From the NCBI GenBank assembly GCA_947176535.1, contig CAMWQU010000002.1:1-64000 (forward strand): a stretch of 64,000 bases of DNA, written 5' to 3'. Shown here in pieces: positions 19,329 to 62,613 of this stretch. Each line of letters starts with the position of its first letter. The first letter of the stretch is position 1. Below the pieces are notes generated by a model, which saw only the letters and a list, made by a program, of their open reading frames with translations, searched no databases and was not told the origin of the DNA. Origin of the DNA: an uncultured Prevotellaceae bacterium (GTDB lineage: Bacteria; Bacteroidota; Bacteroidia; Bacteroidales; Bacteroidaceae). Both the position numbers and the translations under genes were made by a program.

Positions 19329-19370
19329 GGTTCCGCTGTTCCTATCTTATAAACCATCATCCATGTTTGT

Positions 19371-19415
19371 ATTTGCAACGGCGGTTGAATCAACCGCCGT
19401 TGCAAATATTTTTCC
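19371..19415 (+). terminator. Terminator of the DUF4143 ATPase gene
   Basis: A perfect 17-bp stem (19371-19387 with 19391-19407, loop AAT) is followed by ATTTTTCC. Confidence 0.85.
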
Positions 19416-22085: not shown

Positions 22086-22246
22086 CTGACTACTTGCATT
22101 ACGAGCAGTGGCAAAGATCTCACCTACCTTTTTTAAGTCCTCAAAAGTTCCTATCTTTTGTGGGGTTTGCGCGACCGCATTTAACCCTCCTCAAAATAGG
22201 ACACATTTTCCGCCCTCCGTCTCCCCCGTTCAGTCCCGCCGAGGTT

Positions 22247-22353
22247 GGGCCTCTGTCCATAGCGGGACAGAGCCTCGTCCCGCTATGGACGGAGGCCCGT
22301 CCTCCTATGCGTGTGCGCCCGGGCGTGCGCATGCGCGTTCCTTATATATATGG
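22247..22353 (-). repeat. Dispersed palindromic REP-like element, copy B
   Basis: On the minus strand it reads TATATATAAGGAACGCGCAT, then a GCCCGGGCGC block, then inverted arms GCCTCCGTCCATAGCGGGAC (22296-22277) and GTCCCGCTATGGACAGAGGC (22268-22249). It is about 90% identical by eye to copy A over roughly 75 bp and lacks the small hairpin between the arms. It lies between the truncated surface-protein gene and the Abi gene. Otherwise 22086-22464 holds nothing I recognise. Confidence 0.8.
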
Positions 22354-43364: not shown

Positions 43365-45683
43365 CTATCGGATTAGCTTTTTGCCTTTGCTTATAACCAA
43401 GCGATTCTCCGGCGTTGCCCGACGCCCCGCCACGTTATATTCCTTTCGAGAAAGAATATTCACACACGTTTTGCCTTCCGCCGCATCAGGGTCTTGAATC
43501 GCACCGATACCATCCGGGGCCTGATAACTGCTCATCTGCACATCATCCATATTCGACCGTTTGGAATTGGAAGAGCCATTGTTTACGAAGCGTAGACGTA
43601 TGTCACCCGGCACATCAAGTTTATAACCATAGCGCTGCCAAGTCCCCATTTCGATGTTCTCGACTACTGCGGTCCATGTATTTCCGCCATCGGTGGAGTA
43701 ATAAACGGACAACTTCACGCCGCTATCGTTCCGGTATCGACCTGCATAGAACCAAAGCGAGTCACAACCTTCCGTTTTATCAGTCTGCTGCTCAATAGAG
43801 CCTTTTCCGCGTAAGCGCACACTGCGGCCGTCATTCCGGTTGTCATCGGCAACGGGATAGGCATCGCTCATCTTCCACGTCGCAGCCGTGCAGGCTATCG
43901 TACTCTCGGCATATCCGTTCTTGCTCCCCGTCTCGAAGTCCTCAAAGAACGCCTTTGCGGCATCCACCGAGGCCGTCAGGGTGACAATCTTTTCCTCCAC
44001 GCCTTTTGTACTCAATACCATTTCGCTTTCATAGTCGCCTTCCTCTTTCACGGCTCCCATGCGCACAAGAAATTTCTGTTCTTTACCTTTCAGCGTCAGT
44101 GTCTGCGTCCATTCCTCGCCATCTTCACTGACCTCAAAAGGAGCATCCAACGAAACATTAGTAATGTCTTCGGGAACTGAAAGTGCCGTAACAGTAACTT
44201 CCACTGCCCGACTGACCTTGCCGGGTTCTGCGGTGAACGCTATCGAAGAGGGAGAAACAGAGAAAACGGGAGTTATCTCCGGCATCCTCACGCTCACCTC
44301 GTTAGACGAGACCTTCAGTTCATCGTCCTCTATAATCGAAACCGTATAATAATAAGTCGTATTAGCCTGCAGACCCGTCACCTGATAACTGTTCGCCGTC
44401 GTGGTGAAAGTTTTGAAAGGCTTGTGCTCGCCATCACTGCTCTTGGTATAAACATCAAGCGTGTACACGGCTCCCGGCTGATAGTTCATCCAGTTTGCCG
44501 TAAAACGGCGAGAAGAAGGCGTACAGAGAATGTCCGTGGCATCATAAGCCGGTATGCCATCCACAAAAGACACACTCAGCGTGTCCGTCTGCAGAAAACC
44601 ATCTCCGCAAATAGTAAGTATCGTTTTATACGCTCCGGCCGTCAGGGGCTTTATTCGCAAAGGAACGGCATATCCGTCCTCAAGTTGCACACTGTCTATC
44701 CGGGACGTCCCGAACTCAAAAACGGCATCGTCCACGGCAAGCGTAAGCCCGCCGGGAATATTGCGCCCACGCAGCACCAGCAGCGTGTCCAGGCCTCTGC
44801 TCAAGGCTTGCAATCCATAGTCGATGCGAACCCGCGAGGCCGGAACGAACAGTTCCCGCTCCGTAGAATGAGGATTGACGTAAAACTTATATTCCGTACT
44901 GTCGCCCCAGATGTATTCACACAATTGGGGATAATCGACAAAAGGGTTGCGGTTGCCCTGAATGCCGTAGATGACCTCATTACGCTCCTTTTCTATCTCG
45001 TCCACCGGATCGTTTTTGGCCCACTGAAGCATCAGATTATAGACCCAGGGCTGCATAGTGGGCCACAGCGAACCGTCTACCGTAAGCCAACCCTCTTTTG
45101 TCATCCAAAGATCAGCCATGTGCTGATAGCAGGTAGCCATGTAGAAGTATGTACGGGCAAAGTCACCTTTCCACTCGTCAGCCGGCTCCCAAACGGTAAT
45201 AAGGGAATCGGCACGATAGGCTGTAGATTTTCCGACCTTGGTCACACCGTTATCATACACCACATCACCATCCACAAAACCAATCGGATTGTTACTTTTT
45301 CTCCCATTAGCGGAGGCATCGGACGGGTACAGATTAAATAGGTCACAATAAGCATTGTTCACGATATGTCCCCACCAACTGTTGGCCCAGATGTGCTCAA
45401 TATTCATGTTCGGGACGGCCGTTTTGTTTTCGTTAAACAGCCGTCGCTCGTTACTGTAACGGTCACGGACGGAACCGTCCTCCAATCTGTCGGCCGCATA
45501 AAAGCCGGCCCACGTATAACCTTCACCCTTTCCGCCGTAGTTCAAGACCGAGGCAGGGTGAATCAGGTCGTGCAGGGCAGTCTTCAGTTCGGCCTTCCGC
45601 AGGCCCTCCACACTACGATAATACCCCGTCTGAGCATAAGCCAGACAGGGTATGAACAAAAGGTATAGGATTATGCGGCGCAT
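43365..45683 (-). CDS. Multidomain exported endonuclease I
   Basis: The protein has 772 aa. The signal peptide is [17 protein letters not shown]. The endonuclease I domain (about 20-260) has [11 protein letters not shown] (94-104) and [20 protein letters not shown], matching the metal and active-site region of periplasmic EndA-type DNases. A fibronectin III domain follows (about 390-480), then further beta sandwiches and a C-terminal sorting-like tail with [20 protein letters not shown]. This suggests export to the cell surface or medium for DNA degradation. It overlaps the transporter stop by 13 bp and truA follows directly. Confidence 0.9.
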
Positions 45684-47374
45684 AGCAACAGAATAATGAG
45701 TTGGGCTGTCAGGATGCGCAGGAACATACTAAGCGGATAAACCGTGCTATATCCTACCGCCGGGGCGTCGTTATTCGCCGTCTGCGTAGCGTAAGCCAGT
45801 GCCGGAGGGTCTGTCGTAGAACCGGCTATCAGCCCCATCAGCGTGAAGTAGTTCAACTTATAGCGCAACCGTGCGATGCAACCGACAATCAAGATAGGAA
45901 TAACGGTAATGAGGAATCCACACCATACGTAAGTCAGTCCGTCACCGGAAACTACGGTATCCCAGAATGAAGCACCGGCCTTTATGCCCACACTGGCAAG
46001 GAACAGCACAAGACCGATTTCGCGCAACATGAGGTTGGCACTTGTTGTGGTGTAAGTAACCATGTGTGCCCGATAGCCGAAACGGCCCACCAGTATGGCC
46101 ACAATCAGCGGCCCGCCTGCCAGACCCAGCTTGACGGGAGTGGGGATTCCGGGGATGGCAATGGGCATCATTCCGAAGATTATACCCACAAAGATACCTA
46201 CAAAGATGGCGGACAGATTGGGATGCTCAAGGCTTTTCACCGAGTTACCCATCATCGAGGCAACCCGATCCACAGCATCCTCCGGCCCCACAACTACAAT
46301 CTTATCACCCACCTGCATGTGCAGGTTACGATCTGCGTAAAGGTTCATGCCGTTACGACGGATGCGCGTCACGTTCACACCATATACAGAGCTGAAGTGC
46401 AGCGAACCGAATGTCTTACCGTTCATGCTGGGCTGCGTCACAAGTATGTGTTTGCTTACCAAAGGTACATCCTGTTCCTCCCATTCCACCTCACAAGGTT
46501 CGCCGATAAAGGCCGTGATGGCCTCCGCAGCATCCTGAGCGCACACGATGAACATCCGGTCACCCACATGCAACACAGTATCGCGGTTAGGTATTGAAAC
46601 GTGGCCTTCGTGCAGGATGCGTGAGACCACGAAGTCGCGGCCGAGGAATTGACTTACCTGCAACAGCGTGCGGTCGCTCAACGCCGGGTTCTTCACCTCC
46701 AACGTCATCTTATGAGGCTTGGCATGCGGATTCTCGGCCCGCTCCTGCTCTATCTGCTCCTGCTCTTTTTTCAGCTTGACGCTACAAATCATGCGGATAG
46801 CAATGGTTGCGAGGATAATGCCCACCACACCGAGGGGATAAGCGCAGGCGTAACCGTTGGCAATGGGGGGAGCATCGGTGCCGAAGACGGTAGAACAGGC
46901 TTCGTTGGCGGCACCCAGACCGGGCGTATTGGTGATGGCTCCGCAAAGAACACCAACCATCATTGCCAGATTCCGGGCATTCTGACCGACAATGGGCCCG
47001 CCTTCCCAGAAAATCAGAAAGAACAGACCGATGGTGCATGCCACATTGAGCAGCACGATGCTGGCTGCCAGCAGATTCATCTTGATGCCGGCATCACGCA
47101 GGCTCTCAAAGAAACCGGGCCCCACCTGCAGACCGATACAATAGACAAACAGGATAAGACCAAAATCCTGAACGTAGGTGAGGATATTGGTTGTTCCGGT
47201 CAGTTCTAAATGTCCTGCCAGAATACCGGCAAAGAGAACAAAGGTGACACCCAACGAGATTCCTCCGATTTTGATTCGCCCCAAAGCGATACCTATCGAA
47301 ATCACTAACGCATACAGCAATACGATATGCGCGATGGAATCGTTGTCTGTAAAGAGATTTATTAACCAATCCAT
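45671..47374 (-). CDS. Putative transporter of the AspT/YidE type
   Basis: The protein has 567 aa. There are five to six membrane helices at each end (residues 5-195 and 385-565), flanking two TrkA-C-like regulatory domains (about 210-290, [15 protein letters not shown]; about 300-375, [13 protein letters not shown]). Repeated motifs [15 protein letters not shown] and [15 protein letters not shown] match the aspartate-alanine exchanger family. The substrate here is unknown. A TATCTTTG -7 box (47412-47405) lies 30 bp upstream; the operon runs transporter, endonuclease I, truA, EamA, DUF3256. Confidence 0.88.
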
Positions 47375-47412: not shown

Positions 47413-47529
47413 CAAATAAGCGGGTAAAGTGCCAAACACGTTCGATATTTTTCGATTGAATGGCCCGTATTGACAGGAAAACGTAAAGGAATCCCCGGGA
47501 ATATCCGGGCCGCTTCGACCGGAGAACTT

Positions 47530-47605
47530 GTTTATTCGGTCGCGACCGGTTAATTATTCAAAGGTGAGCGAATAATTAACCGGTCGCCTCTGAATAATAT
47601 AGTCC
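47530..47605. repeat. Dispersed hairpin element, copy 1
   Basis: The perfect 18-bp arms GCGACCGGTTAATTATTC (47542-47559) and its complement (47570-47587) enclose the loop AAAGGTGAGC, with GTTTATTCGGTC before and TGAATAATATAGTCC after. A near-identical copy with compensatory arm changes is at 61415-61489. It lies between two minus-strand genes. Confidence 0.85.
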
Positions 47606-47658
47606 TGCGGTTGTCCGGGAACATCGCAACGGTTATAGAAAGTCCAGGAATGTAGGGA

Positions 47659-48933
47659 TTAGCAGAAGAAATCGGGCAGTGGCTCGGTCGGGTTGTACGT
47701 GGTGCGGATGCGCCACTCCTGCGGGTAAAGATTATTAAGACGGGTGACTACACTTTTGGCCAGACCGAGGGGAAGACCGCGATAGGTGACAGCAACAAGT
47801 CCACGAGGAGCAGGAATGTGCAGAGCCTCGCGGCGCAGATAACTGATGGCCTGAGGGTAGGATAAGTCTAATCGAGCTTCCGCCATCGAAACGTCGTTCT
47901 GCGATTCGTCCCCTCGGAGATGCGGTTGGGGAAGAAGCGGAGAATCACAATCCGCCGTGTGGGCTATCACGTTCAGCGTTTTTAGAGACCTCAGGGAAAC
48001 CGTCTCAGCCTCGCCGAGCTTACGCAGAGCCGCCATGTAGAGGCCTTCACCACGGTCACGTCCGGGAAAGAAATGGCGTTCTTCCAACAACTGGAACCCA
48101 TATTCGGACATAAGCCAACGAACTTGGTCTTCATCCTCGTAACGGTTGAAAGTGCAAGTGCTGTAAATGAGCAGGCCGCCGGGCTTCAGCGTCGGAACGA
48201 TGTTGGTGAGAATATCTCGTTGCCGTTCGACACATTGGCGAACGTTTTCCAAGCTCCATTCACGGATGGCCGTAGCATCCTTACGGAACATGCCTTCACC
48301 GGAACAGGGCACATCTGTAAGGATGAGATGGAAGGCATCGTGCAGGTGCGAAAAGTCCGAAGGATAGTTCTGCGTGACATAGCAGTTGGGATAGCCCCAC
48401 TTCAAGATATTTTCGGCCAGCACACTGGCGCGCTTGCGGATGGGTTCATTGGAAACGAGCAAACTGCGTTCGGGCAGATGAGCGGCCAACAAAGTGCTCT
48501 TGCCGCCGGGTGCGGCACAAAGGTCGAGAGCAGCAATAGGCTGCTTGCCATCATCGCCTAAATACTTCCGCAACATCTCGGCCAAGTACATCGACGAGGC
48601 ATCCTGAACATAATAAACTCCGGCATGAAAGAGGGGGTCGAAAGTGAAAGCCTTACGCTCTGAAAGATAATAAGCGTCGGGACACCAAGGTACAGGGTCG
48701 CCCAACGGTTCGCGATTCAACGTCAGTTGGGCTGCCTTGCGCGGATTGAAACGCACGGCGATTGTGGGCGGCTGCAGAAGTCCGTCCAACAAAGCATCTG
48801 CATCCGCCTCATTCAAATGCGAACGCATCAAGGTTATGAAATCCTGAGGTAACATCACCCGCTCTGCCGAATCCCGGGAAGCAAAGGACGCATCCGGAGT
48901 TTGCTGTTCTTTCGCCATTCTGTGCTTAATCAA
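47659..48933 (-). CDS. RsmF-like rRNA (cytosine-C5) methyltransferase
   Basis: The protein has 424 aa, or 419 from MAKEQQ. It has a NOL1/NOP2/Sun fold with [13 protein letters not shown] (SAM motif I), [16 protein letters not shown] (catalytic Cys of motif IV) and [17 protein letters not shown] (motif VI nucleophilic Cys). A C-terminal extension ([25 protein letters not shown]) is as in the RsmF/YebU group. It probably methylates a 16S rRNA cytosine. Its 5' end overlaps thyA by 4 bp. Confidence 0.88.
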
Positions 48934-50695: not shown

Positions 50696-50862
50696 CTAAT
50701 TTATAGCGAAAACTAAGCCAAAGACAACAAATAATTTAGTATTGACTCCTACAACCCATATAGAGTGTAACGTCTAAATGGCAATACGATAATAAAGCAA
50801 TTATATAGAGTCGAAGATGTAAGCATAACTATATTTCTGATTGACAAAATCCTCCAAGCAAG

Positions 50863-50927
50863 AGCACATAAAATAAAAGAAAGAGTCTTGTATCATAAAC
50901 AAGACTCTTTCTTTTATTTTATGTGCT
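50863..50927. terminator. 29-bp perfect hairpin downstream of the ExbD genes
   Basis: Arms 50863-50891 and 50899-50927 are exact complements with a 7-nt loop ATCATAA. The inner part (AAGAGTCTTG) is GC-richer and the outer part is A/T-rich, so each strand has a U-rich 3' arm. It lies 18 bp after the ExbD stop and works as a terminator for that operon. The remainder of 50696-50862 shows nothing I recognise. Confidence 0.8.
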
Positions 50928-50944
50928 TTTATAAAGCAAGTTTC

Positions 50945-60168: not shown

Positions 60169-61251
60169 TTATTCCACGTTGATATACAGTTCTGTCTTGG
60201 CGTGCCTCGGGTCGTTGCAGATGAGCAGCAGGCGCGGGCCGTTCTTTGCCTTTGCCAATTCCTTCGCATCCAGCGTTATCTTGAGTTTCGCCGTGGCGTG
60301 CGGTTTGATATTCCGCTCTCCCAAACTTACCGACATCGCCCTGTTGAACACCTGCACGCCGCTGACGGTAAGCGTTTCCTCGCCGATGTTCGTCACGTGG
60401 AGCACCTTGGTCACTTTTTTCTTGCCGCCCATCACGAAGGTTGTCTCGCCCTCAATCATCTTATCGCCATCCATCAGCACGATGCGCGGGGCGCGGTTCA
60501 TTTCCTCCGCCGTCAGGTTGCGGAAAGCCGGCAACAGAACGGCCGACACCACGATTTCGTTTTGGTCGCCGATTTTGTCCCCCATATAGCGGGACAGGTA
60601 GAGGGAGGTCTGGTTCAGTCCGTTCATGAAAAGGCGGTCGCTGTCTAACGTCAGACGAATCTTGCCCACACGACCGGGCTGCACCTCGGCGGGCAGATAC
60701 TCCACGGAAAGATAATTCGGCAGGTGCATCAACTGAGGCGTGTAGGGCGTATGCTCCAGATTCACGATTTGCAGTTCCGTCACAGGCTTGTCGCCTTTGT
60801 TCACATCATTGAACTCTATATAGTTCTTGCTCAGTCTGACGTTTCCGAGGTCTATGGGAAAATCGCCTTCGTAGTCGAGCGGGGTCTCCACCACCCGCCC
60901 TTGGAACGACAAGTAGATGGGGAGCGGCTGCGCATTGGTGTAGACGGCCAGTTCACGATAGAACGTGCCCAGCATTCCCGCATCATACGTGGCCGTTATC
61001 ATTCCGCTCTGTCCGGCCGGGACGGGGGCTTCCGGATAGGTCACGCTGATACATCCGCACGAGGGATGCACTTCCGTTATCTGCAGGGGCTCCGTTCCTC
61101 GGTTCGAGAACGTGAAAAGGACGGTCTTGGGATTCTGCCATACAATATCTCCGGTCTTCACCACAGGGGCATCCGGAACGAACCGGGGCTGCGCCAACAG
61201 GGAGGCAGCCATCACGAGTAACAAACTGACTGTAAAGATTCTCTTTTCCAC
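60169..61251 (-). CDS. DUF1573 exported protein
   Basis: The protein has 360 aa from GTG 61251 (VEKRIFTVSLLLVMAASLLAQ, signal peptide). The track start at 61266 is inside the -7 box. Two or more immunoglobulin-like beta domains are present, the first with the DUF1573 motif TNRGTEPL-like FSNRGTEPLQITEVHPSCGCISV. The C-terminal domain repeats the pattern (VTNIGEETLTVSGVQV). Envelope protein of unknown role, 44 bp upstream of meaB. Confidence 0.85.
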   Translation of the reverse strand: MEKRIFTVSLLLVMAASLLAQPRFVPDAPVVKTGDIVWQNPKTVLFTFSNRGTEPLQITEVHPSCGCISVTYPEAPVPAGQSGMITATYDAGMLGTFYRELAVYTNAQPLPIYLSFQGRVVETPLDYEGDFPIDLGNVRLSKNYIEFNDVNKGDKPVTELQIVNLEHTPYTPQLMHLPNYLSVEYLPAEVQPGRVGKIRLTLDSDRLFMNGLNQTSLYLSRYMGDKIGDQNEIVVSAVLLPAFRNLTAEEMNRAPRIVLMDGDKMIEGETTFVMGGKKKVTKVLHVTNIGEETLTVSGVQVFNRAMSVSLGERNIKPHATAKLKITLDAKELAKAKNGPRLLLICNDPRHAKTELYINVE

Positions 61252-61255
61252 GTTG

Positions 61256-61263
61256 CAAATATA
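61256..61263 (-). promoter_or_regulatory. -7 box directly before the DUF1573 gene
   Basis: TATATTTG on the minus strand ends 4 nt before GTG 61251, predicting a leaderless mRNA. Confidence 0.55.
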
Positions 61264-61414
61264 CAAATTTTCTTACGAATTACAAATTCTATCCACAGGT
61301 TGAAGCAAGTTTCCTTTATTTAATTCAAAACGGCAGACACAAATACGGGGGCTTGCCGCCTCGAAAACTCTTCACCGTCCGGGTATCGGCCGCCCCATGC
61401 TGCGGGGAGGTCGG

Positions 61415-61489
61415 GTTTATTCGGTCGTGAGCGGTTAATTATTCAAAGGCGACCGAATAATTAACCGCTCACCTTTGAATAATAAAGTC
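61415..61489. repeat. Dispersed hairpin element, copy 2
   Basis: The perfect 18-bp arms GTGAGCGGTTAATTATTC (61427-61444) and its complement (61455-61472) enclose the loop AAAGGCGACC. It is identical to copy 1 (47530-47605) outside a few arm and loop positions. It lies between two minus-strand genes, and 61264-61414 otherwise shows nothing I recognise. Confidence 0.85.
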
Positions 61490-61524
61490 CACGGCGGGAC
61501 GGCCGTGCATTGTCGTAACAGGGA

Positions 61525-61608: not shown

Positions 61609-62613
61609 TTATTTTTTAGTATGGGGCTTCAGGGTGCGCAGACCGGCCTCAACCGAGCGCAGAAGGTCGCGTTTGGAACTATTGGGCGAGAAGACAAAGC
61701 CTTCCGTCACCACCACCTGCCGGGCCGCAGTGTCTACACGAACCAGCGAAACGAACGGGCCGCCCATGAATCCGTTACGCATTTCCCACAATCCGCGCAC
61801 CTCATACTGTGCCTGACCGTCAATTTTCCTGAGCATCGGCCACAACACGGGAATACCCTGCTCGCCACGCGTCGTCGTCATGTACTGGTCGGGGCGGCTA
61901 CCGGGAACATTCGCTTTCATCACCGAATCGCGCTTCTGCACGAAAAGGGCCGTATCGGCCACGTTGCCGCCATCCCACGGATAGGTGTAGAAGACAAAAT
62001 TGATGTCTTTCTCCCCGCCCCGATTCGAAGAGGCCCAAAGGAAGTCCTTACCGGATTTCGTCGAAGCAATGTCCGACGGCACACGAACGTCGTAACCCAG
62101 CTTCTGCAGGGCCTTGCTCGTGTTCTTGCTGTACTTTTTCCGGAGAAAACCGGCATAACGGTCGAGCTGAAAATCGAGAAAAGTACGCTGGATGCGCTCC
62201 CGGTTGACACTCAGGAAGTCACGCATTTCCTCCTCGGAGGCGGCCGTCACCATCACCTGAATCTGCGGGCGGGCGTGCACATCATAGGCCACGCCCATCG
62301 ACGGTTCCTTCTGGGCGGGGTCTATTTTAAGGTGCAGTTGGCTGTGCATCAGCTTATACACTTTGTCATATCCCTTTTCGCCGATAATCATCGTCCGGAA
62401 AATGCGTTCCGAGGCTCCCAGGCCCGGTGCGTCGGCATCTACAACGGAGTTCAACGTGTCGAGGTTCTCACCCTGCAACATCCGAGGAGGAGCCACCACA
62501 AGAAGCTCTGCCGGCTGTCCCTTGGACTCCGCCAGGCGGGTGGGTTCGTTCTTTTCACAACTAAAGAGAACGAGGAGCATCCCTCCGAGCATCAAAGAAA
62601 AAATCTTTTTCAT
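61609..62613 (-). CDS. DUF4837 lipoprotein
   Basis: The protein has 334 aa. The lipobox is LVLFSC (Cys19). The mature part (ESKGQPAELLVVAPPRMLQGEN, then WASSNRGGEKDINFVFYTYPW, then MTTTRGEQGIPVLWPMLRKI) matches DUF4837 of Bacteroidales. Envelope lipoprotein of unknown function. It follows the alpha-2-macroglobulin-like gene by 22 bp in the same operon. Confidence 0.87.
   Translation of the reverse strand: MKKIFSLMLGGMLLVLFSCEKNEPTRLAESKGQPAELLVVAPPRMLQGENLDTLNSVVDADAPGLGASERIFRTMIIGEKGYDKVYKLMHSQLHLKIDPAQKEPSMGVAYDVHARPQIQVMVTAASEEEMRDFLSVNRERIQRTFLDFQLDRYAGFLRKKYSKNTSKALQKLGYDVRVPSDIASTKSGKDFLWASSNRGGEKDINFVFYTYPWDGGNVADTALFVQKRDSVMKANVPGSRPDQYMTTTRGEQGIPVLWPMLRKIDGQAQYEVRGLWEMRNGFMGGPFVSLVRVDTAARQVVVTEGFVFSPNSSKRDLLRSVEAGLRTLKPHTKK

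Follow-up and report, generated by a model that had tools for sequence, protein, structure and literature searches.

Dispersed hairpins built of 22-bp bricks in an uncultured Bacteroidales genome: brick exchange and template switching between arms as a possible source of compensatory stem changes

Why should two near-identical hairpins differ in their arms and still be perfectly paired? The question is raised by two copies of a short palindromic element in the window, by which we mean the whole 64,000-nt stretch of DNA analyzed here, from an uncultured bacterium whose placement is claimed to the order Bacteroidales and to the genus grouping of the genome set used. An earlier note described the copies (47530-47605 and 61415-61489) as nearly identical, with 18 perfect pairs in each, with the words GCGACC and GTGAGC trading places between arm and loop, and with minus-strand genes around them. 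Its proposal was that the folded form is under selection or that sub-blocks are exchanged. The description is borne out: the cores match at 59 of 66 positions, 18-bp perfectly complementary arms are present in both copies, the two words change places as described, and the flanking minus-strand ORFs have Pfam matches (Table 1), although this gene setting is untypical of the family as a whole. By brick, the words read GGTCG.CGACC / AAAGG.TGAGC / GGTCG.CCTCT in copy 1 and GGTCG.TGAGC / AAAGG.CGACC / GCTCA.CCTTT in copy 2. Predicted RNA folding is strong in both copies and on both strands (z -5.5 to -8.6 against shuffles), as is DNA folding, computed for the plus strand only (z -7.6 for copy 1 and -5.3 for copy 2). 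The hairpins have no Rfam match; the only matches above threshold in the window are RNase P and tmRNA. A CRISPR array, with unique spacers between direct repeats, was ruled out, as the bricks are contiguous and the copies dispersed.

Table 1. The two hairpin copies in the window, their parts and the adjoining open reading frames.
Feature	Position	Strand	Description
Copy 1, core	47532..47597	none	three 22-bp bricks: 47532-47553, 47554-47575, 47576-47597
Copy 1, stem, 5' arm	47542..47559	+	18 bp, GCGACCGGTTAATTATTC
Copy 1, loop	47560..47569	+	10 nt, AAAGGTGAGC, word slots 3 and 4
Copy 1, stem, 3' arm	47570..47587	+	GAATAATTAACCGGTCGC
Copy 1, left outer flank brick	47510..47531	none	ends in end word ACTTGT (Q type, outward ACAAGT)
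Copy 1, right outer flank brick	47598..47619	none	begins with end word TATAGT (P type)
Copy 2, core	61417..61482	none	bricks 61417-61438, 61439-61460, 61461-61482
Copy 2, stem, 5' arm	61427..61444	+	GTGAGCGGTTAATTATTC
Copy 2, loop	61445..61454	+	10 nt, AAAGGCGACC
Copy 2, stem, 3' arm	61455..61472	+	GAATAATTAACCGCTCAC
Copy 2, left outer flank brick	61395..61416	none	Q-type end word ACCCGA, outward
Copy 2, right outer flank brick	61483..61504	none	P-type end word TAAAGT
ORF beside copy 1	45671-47374	minus	Pfam match Asp-Al_Ex permease
ORF beside copy 1	47659-48933	minus	Pfam match, RsmF-type methyltransferase
ORF beside copy 2	60169-61266	minus	Pfam match DUF1573
ORF beside copy 2	61609-62613	minus	Pfam match DUF4837

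The two copies belong to a large family. The pattern TTAATTATTC-N10-GAATAATTAA, with up to 2 mismatches, finds at least 47 dispersed near-palindromic copies in the host genome (G000), compared with 0 matches for the reversed pattern, so the family is far above chance. Two further copies are interrupted by contig ends (the end of C29 and the start of C31), and the true copy number may therefore be higher. The data for the copies are the stretches of sequence around them. With flanks, 46 core matches could be read, and the 43 with an exact skeleton were used for word statistics; the other three, from the loci L087 and L088, likewise have three bricks but in a different order. In a typical copy, three contiguous bricks make up a 66-bp core, TTATTC-s1-s2-GGTTAA / TTATTC-s3-s4-GAATAA / TTAACC-s5-s6-GAATAA, where s1 to s6 are slots for 5-letter words. 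The 36 skeleton positions are invariant (0 differences in 1548 positions over the 43 copies). The skeleton was itself part of the search, so that copies with many skeleton changes would escape detection, but of the 2 mismatches allowed over the 20 central positions any at all were seen in just two copies. The vocabulary of the slots is small: the words RRAGG (A), GGTCG (B) and GCTCA (C), the complements of these three, plus a few hybrids. The words are exact and occur in 32 distinct combinations among the 43 copies. Bricks carrying the same word twice, which would be symmetric, are rare (8 of 129).

Collecting all copies and testing covariation, as the earlier note had advised, reveals that facing words are indeed coupled in the 43 copies. 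Slots 2 and 5, a facing pair with 34 bp between its members, have a mutual information of 0.56 (p=0.0005), the highest of the slot pairs relative to shuffles. They are perfectly complementary in 31 copies versus 19.0 expected (p=0.0002), and in 22 of 32 when only distinct rows are counted (p=0.0006). Slots 1 and 6 are perfectly complementary in 16 copies versus 9.0 expected (p=0.001) and mispaired in more than half. The covariation score is 0.100 versus 0.068 in shuffled sets, none of 500 shuffles reaching the observed value, and it drops to 0.020 or less once the pairing register is slid. By mutual information, the neighboring slots 4-5 and 2-3 are not linked, so the coupling is not explained by simple descent or by blockwise copying of neighbors. 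Slots 1-2, which meet within one brick, are associated (p=0.0055), indicating that some words travel as a 10-mer, and slots 1-4, which would pair brick 1 with brick 2, show no coupling. Perfect complementarity of the loop slots 3-4 is seen in none of the 43 copies. The coupling is not absolute: slots 2-5 are mispaired in 12 copies, and selection on the fold is thus not strict. Unpaired arm changes, which at a neutral rate would speak against such selection, do occur but are rarer than shuffling predicts.

Of the two original readings, exchange of sub-blocks is strongly supported by the exactness of the words, the number of their combinations and the constancy of the skeleton. Selection on the fold fares less well: the coupling is real, but in view of the mispaired copies, and of direct-repeat copies in a related genome (G018), copying from arm to arm explains it at least as well. 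Template switching by the polymerase between short inverted repeats has known products, homogenization of the arms and inversion of the spacer (PMC8604942). Since arm homogenization and loops in both directions are this signature, template switching, together with brick exchange, is our best reading, and it would be the likeliest cause of the "compensatory" arm changes.

The analysis shows the copies and their bricks, the exact words, the coupling of facing words, the occurrence of the loop in both directions relative to the end words, and the absence of overlap with called genes. With a little better than even confidence, we regard the hairpins as a non-autonomous, intergenic, quasi-palindromic mosaic repeat of 22-bp bricks, shaped by brick exchange and by template switching between arms. 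We infer that some agent would have multiplied the core in the genome, the copies being tolerated wherever they broke neither genes nor promoters. Bricks would then be swapped between copies, either by short-tract recombination or by template switching at the identical TTATTC/GAATAA skeleton, and this would shuffle words faster than point mutation alters them. Within a copy, the polymerase would switch between the hairpin arms, making them alike and flipping the loop. A center that does not pair would be retained, possibly because without a loop the 66-bp palindrome might not be stable. The element need not serve the cell. The variable brick number in G018 (1 to 5) counts in favor of a mosaic repeat. 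Against this explanation, the invariant skeleton could also reflect strong selection for a protein-binding sequence, swapped flanks would mimic loop inversion, and no multiplying agent was found: no Y1 transposase turned up in the incomplete assemblies of G000 and G018, nor did any target-site duplication. The association of slots 1-2 and the borderline coupling of slots 2-5 in G018 also count against it.

The flanks bear on the second of these points. The six bases outside the core are drawn from a limited range of words, usually of different type at either end of a copy, P (for example, TAAAGT, TGTAGT) or Q (ACTCAA, ACAAGT, TCCCAT), the types being set by our own rule on flanks that are themselves variable. 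At facing end positions 1-4, pairing is less frequent than in shuffles. With polarity given by end-word type, 28 copies have the loop A-first and 10 have it the other way, a pattern that loop inversion and flank exchange would produce alike. The 22-bp register extends into the flanks (lag-22 identity z 4.6 in G000, 13 in G018 and 28 in G003, another genome of the genus, versus shuffles); in G000 control stretches 600 bp away it is not above shuffles. No direct repeat at a common offset between the flanks exceeds shuffles as a target-site duplication would, the ends of the element being uncertain. Among orthologous sites sought as empty sites, coding matches are at best ~74-81% identical and none crosses the element site, which leaves the insertion boundary unreadable.

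A second brick family adjoins the subject. At 2444-2572 and 22238-22352, the window has 22-bp bricks (for example, GGGCCTCCGTCCATAGCGGGAC) that follow one another in inverted as well as direct order, with a lag-22 identity of 0.42 (z 18). They border on a conserved segment of alternating purines and pyrimidines, and the host genome has 102 matching pieces. The words GTCCTCCTAWG of this second family reappear in outer flanks of TTATTC copies. The window also contains an isolated, intergenic 32-bp inverted repeat, 97% complementary with a 7-nt loop (50860-50930; AAGAGCACATAAAATAAAAGAAAGAGTCTTGT), a strong hairpin of 25 bp at 96% (1333-1386), and another of 19 bp at 100% followed by a T run and terminator-like (19370-19408).

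The genomic setting was read with a simple codon-based gene caller, whose calls are crude and whose gene starts are approximate. None of the 46 core matches overlaps a called gene. The neighboring genes are divergent at 14, convergent at 10 and co-directional at 21; at 1 match, one side is uncalled. At all 21 co-directional sites, the core is closer to the upstream stop than to the downstream start. This setting fits insertion tolerated away from promoters. The place of the core after the upstream stop at co-directional sites is also what one would expect if the element acted as an RNA hairpin (an mRNA 3' stabilizer, a terminator or a small RNA) whose stem is needed, so that facing words change together. 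The stems are strong, covariation exceeds that of shuffles, and at pair 12-55 the mispairs on the canonical strand are all U-G and never C-A. However, the 14 divergent sites have no nearby 3' end, at co-directional sites the canonical strand is not clearly more often the transcribed one (about 10 to 8 by our count), slots 2-5 are mispaired in 12 of 43 copies, and in G018 direct repeats lacking a long stem make up many of the copies. We consider such an RNA role unlikely; selection on the stem is unneeded, and is weakened by the mispaired copies, the divergent settings and the direct-repeat copies. An intrinsic terminator in particular was rejected on the divergent sites and on flank positions that lack a T run.

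How far does the element extend beyond its host? Named genomes searched with a pattern from the copies gave no match, and relatives were therefore drawn from genomes of the same genus; the one named match of a neighboring gene is to a yak-rumen MAG, Bacteroidaceae bacterium RGIG10229 (64% identity across the protein). Among the 60 relatives in which the exact core was sought, no other has it, and its skeleton is absent from the viral contigs searched. The brick TTATTC-N10-GAATAA with other words does recur among 139 genomes of the genus: exact copies number 44 in G018, 24 in G003 and 7 in G087, and one or two clear word-type bricks each are found in, for example, G065, G063, G071, G002, G117, G126 and G014. 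About a dozen species besides the host carry such bricks, and most of the 139 genomes are without the brick. Among 247 genomes across the order, other lineages have few matches each, mostly at the level of the reversed control, and three genomes from two sister genera have zero. As far as tested, the element appears confined to one genus of uncultured Bacteroidales. The loop words AAAGG and GGAGG could be read as Shine-Dalgarno-like, but this idea was given up, the words of other species being unrelated.

The relatives differ in how the bricks are assembled. In G018, elements have 1 to 5 bricks, three being commonest, and some are palindromic and many direct repeats. None of the 29 three-brick copies in this genome has perfect complementarity at slots 3-4, compared with 10.4 expected (p=0.0002), and within-brick symmetry is avoided; coupling of slots 2-5 is borderline (13 versus 8.7 expected, p=0.046). 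G014 has three-brick elements with GTTTAA/TTAAAC junctions. In G003 and G065, perfectly symmetric single bricks occur, and in G003 the symmetric brick adjoins 22-bp direct arrays. At two G003 loci (L105, 1000-1140; L127, 1400-1500), intergenic direct-repeat arrays of this period lie beside one palindromic brick, with a conserved flank opposite, in a BrickBuilt-like arrangement.

The nearest known kinds are the BIME/REPIN elements and the BrickBuilt MITE, and on this comparison the family may be filed as a brick-type interspersed mosaic repeat. We found no earlier description of TTATTC bricks in the open-access literature searched; one elsewhere is possible. BrickBuilt, of Porphyromonas gingivalis, comprises short spacerless bricks in intergenic regions, 23-nt direct repeats with other flanking segments and predicted long stem-loops, having a leader and a tail with terminal inverted repeats like those of ISPg1/ISPg9 (PMC4596501). 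The TTATTC family shares with it a Bacteroidales host, intergenic location, spacerless tandem bricks of variable number (1-5 in G018; the arrays of G003), other segments at the flanks and predicted stem-loops, and the G003 elements, in which a conserved flank and a 22-bp direct array lie on opposite sides, come closest in appearance. Unlike BrickBuilt, the TTATTC family has a 22-bp brick with inverted-repeat ends and a palindromic core, and no IS-like termini were found, the G000 flanks being of several types with no single terminal repeat. Unlike MITEs generally, it shows no target-site duplication, its ends being uncertain. The likeness to quasipalindromes corrected by template switching lies in arm homogenization and loop inversion (PMC8604942); that process is mutational and acts at a single site, whereas here the signature would extend over ~43 dispersed copies and be accompanied by word exchange between copies.

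Protein binding could provide another reason for so constant a skeleton. The brick would be a dimer site, with 11-bp half-sites over two helical turns, for a nucleoid or chromosome-organizing protein that recognizes the skeleton. The invariant 6-bp half-site ends (TTATTC/GAATAA), the continuation of the register into the flanks and the intergenic location of all core matches are as expected. However, the inner 5 bp are unrelated words (RRAGG, GGTCG, GCTCA), with yet others in other species, all of which one protein would need to tolerate, and most other carrier species have few known copies. A binding-site array seems to us rather improbable.

BIME/REPIN elements are short intergenic palindromic units in inverted order that form mosaics, dozens per genome and often downstream of genes (PMC3733652, PMC6006769), and in E. 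coli they are moved by a REP-associated tyrosine transposase (RAYT). The TTATTC family is likewise short, intergenic, palindromic, mosaic and present in many copies (47), its units being inverted relative to one another. Among described RAYTs, subclass 2.6 is specific to Bacteroidetes and goes with atypical REPs (PMC6006769), and good Y1 matches exist in G087 and G117. However, G087 has just 7 exact bricks, and the matching transposase whose presence the earlier note had suggested checking did not turn up in the richest genomes: the Y1_Tnp model has no match in G000 and G018 (assemblies 80-85% complete), while the E. coli control was detected. The family also differs in its fixed 22-bp bricks in head-to-tail register, with words shuffled on an invariant skeleton, and neither the 43-row core alignment nor the flank tables show, at the foot of the stem, an invariant GTAG or CGTC tag of the kind described in PMC3733652. 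Movement by a RAYT therefore has, in our estimate, a small probability.

A similarly small probability is given to a genus-specific system of recombination or copying, in which bricks would be directional sites, the 5-bp words would be shuffled continually among dozens of loci, the middle brick would be flipped, and each species would have its own vocabulary; if this were true, the genome would carry a fast-evolving combinatorial DNA code. That the bricks are directional crossover sites, with inverted ends and an asymmetric center, at which a dedicated recombinase shuffles words and flips the middle, has only a very slight chance: the inverted-repeat ends, the rarity of symmetric centers in G000 and at slots 3-4 of G018, shuffling that apparently outpaces substitution, and a middle found in both orientations would all follow, but no recombinase is linked, G003 and G065 have symmetric single bricks, the half-sites are short, and template switching accounts for the same facts without a new enzyme.

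The family has implications beyond this genome. Brick-type repeats like BrickBuilt may not be peculiar to Porphyromonas. With ~45 copies in one genome and species-specific vocabularies in one genus, strain genomes could be used to measure how fast arms are corrected, loops inverted and bricks exchanged. Finally, it offers a clear natural example of how "compensatory" changes in a stem may come from arm-to-arm copying and not from selection on structure, a trap for covariation-based RNA discovery.
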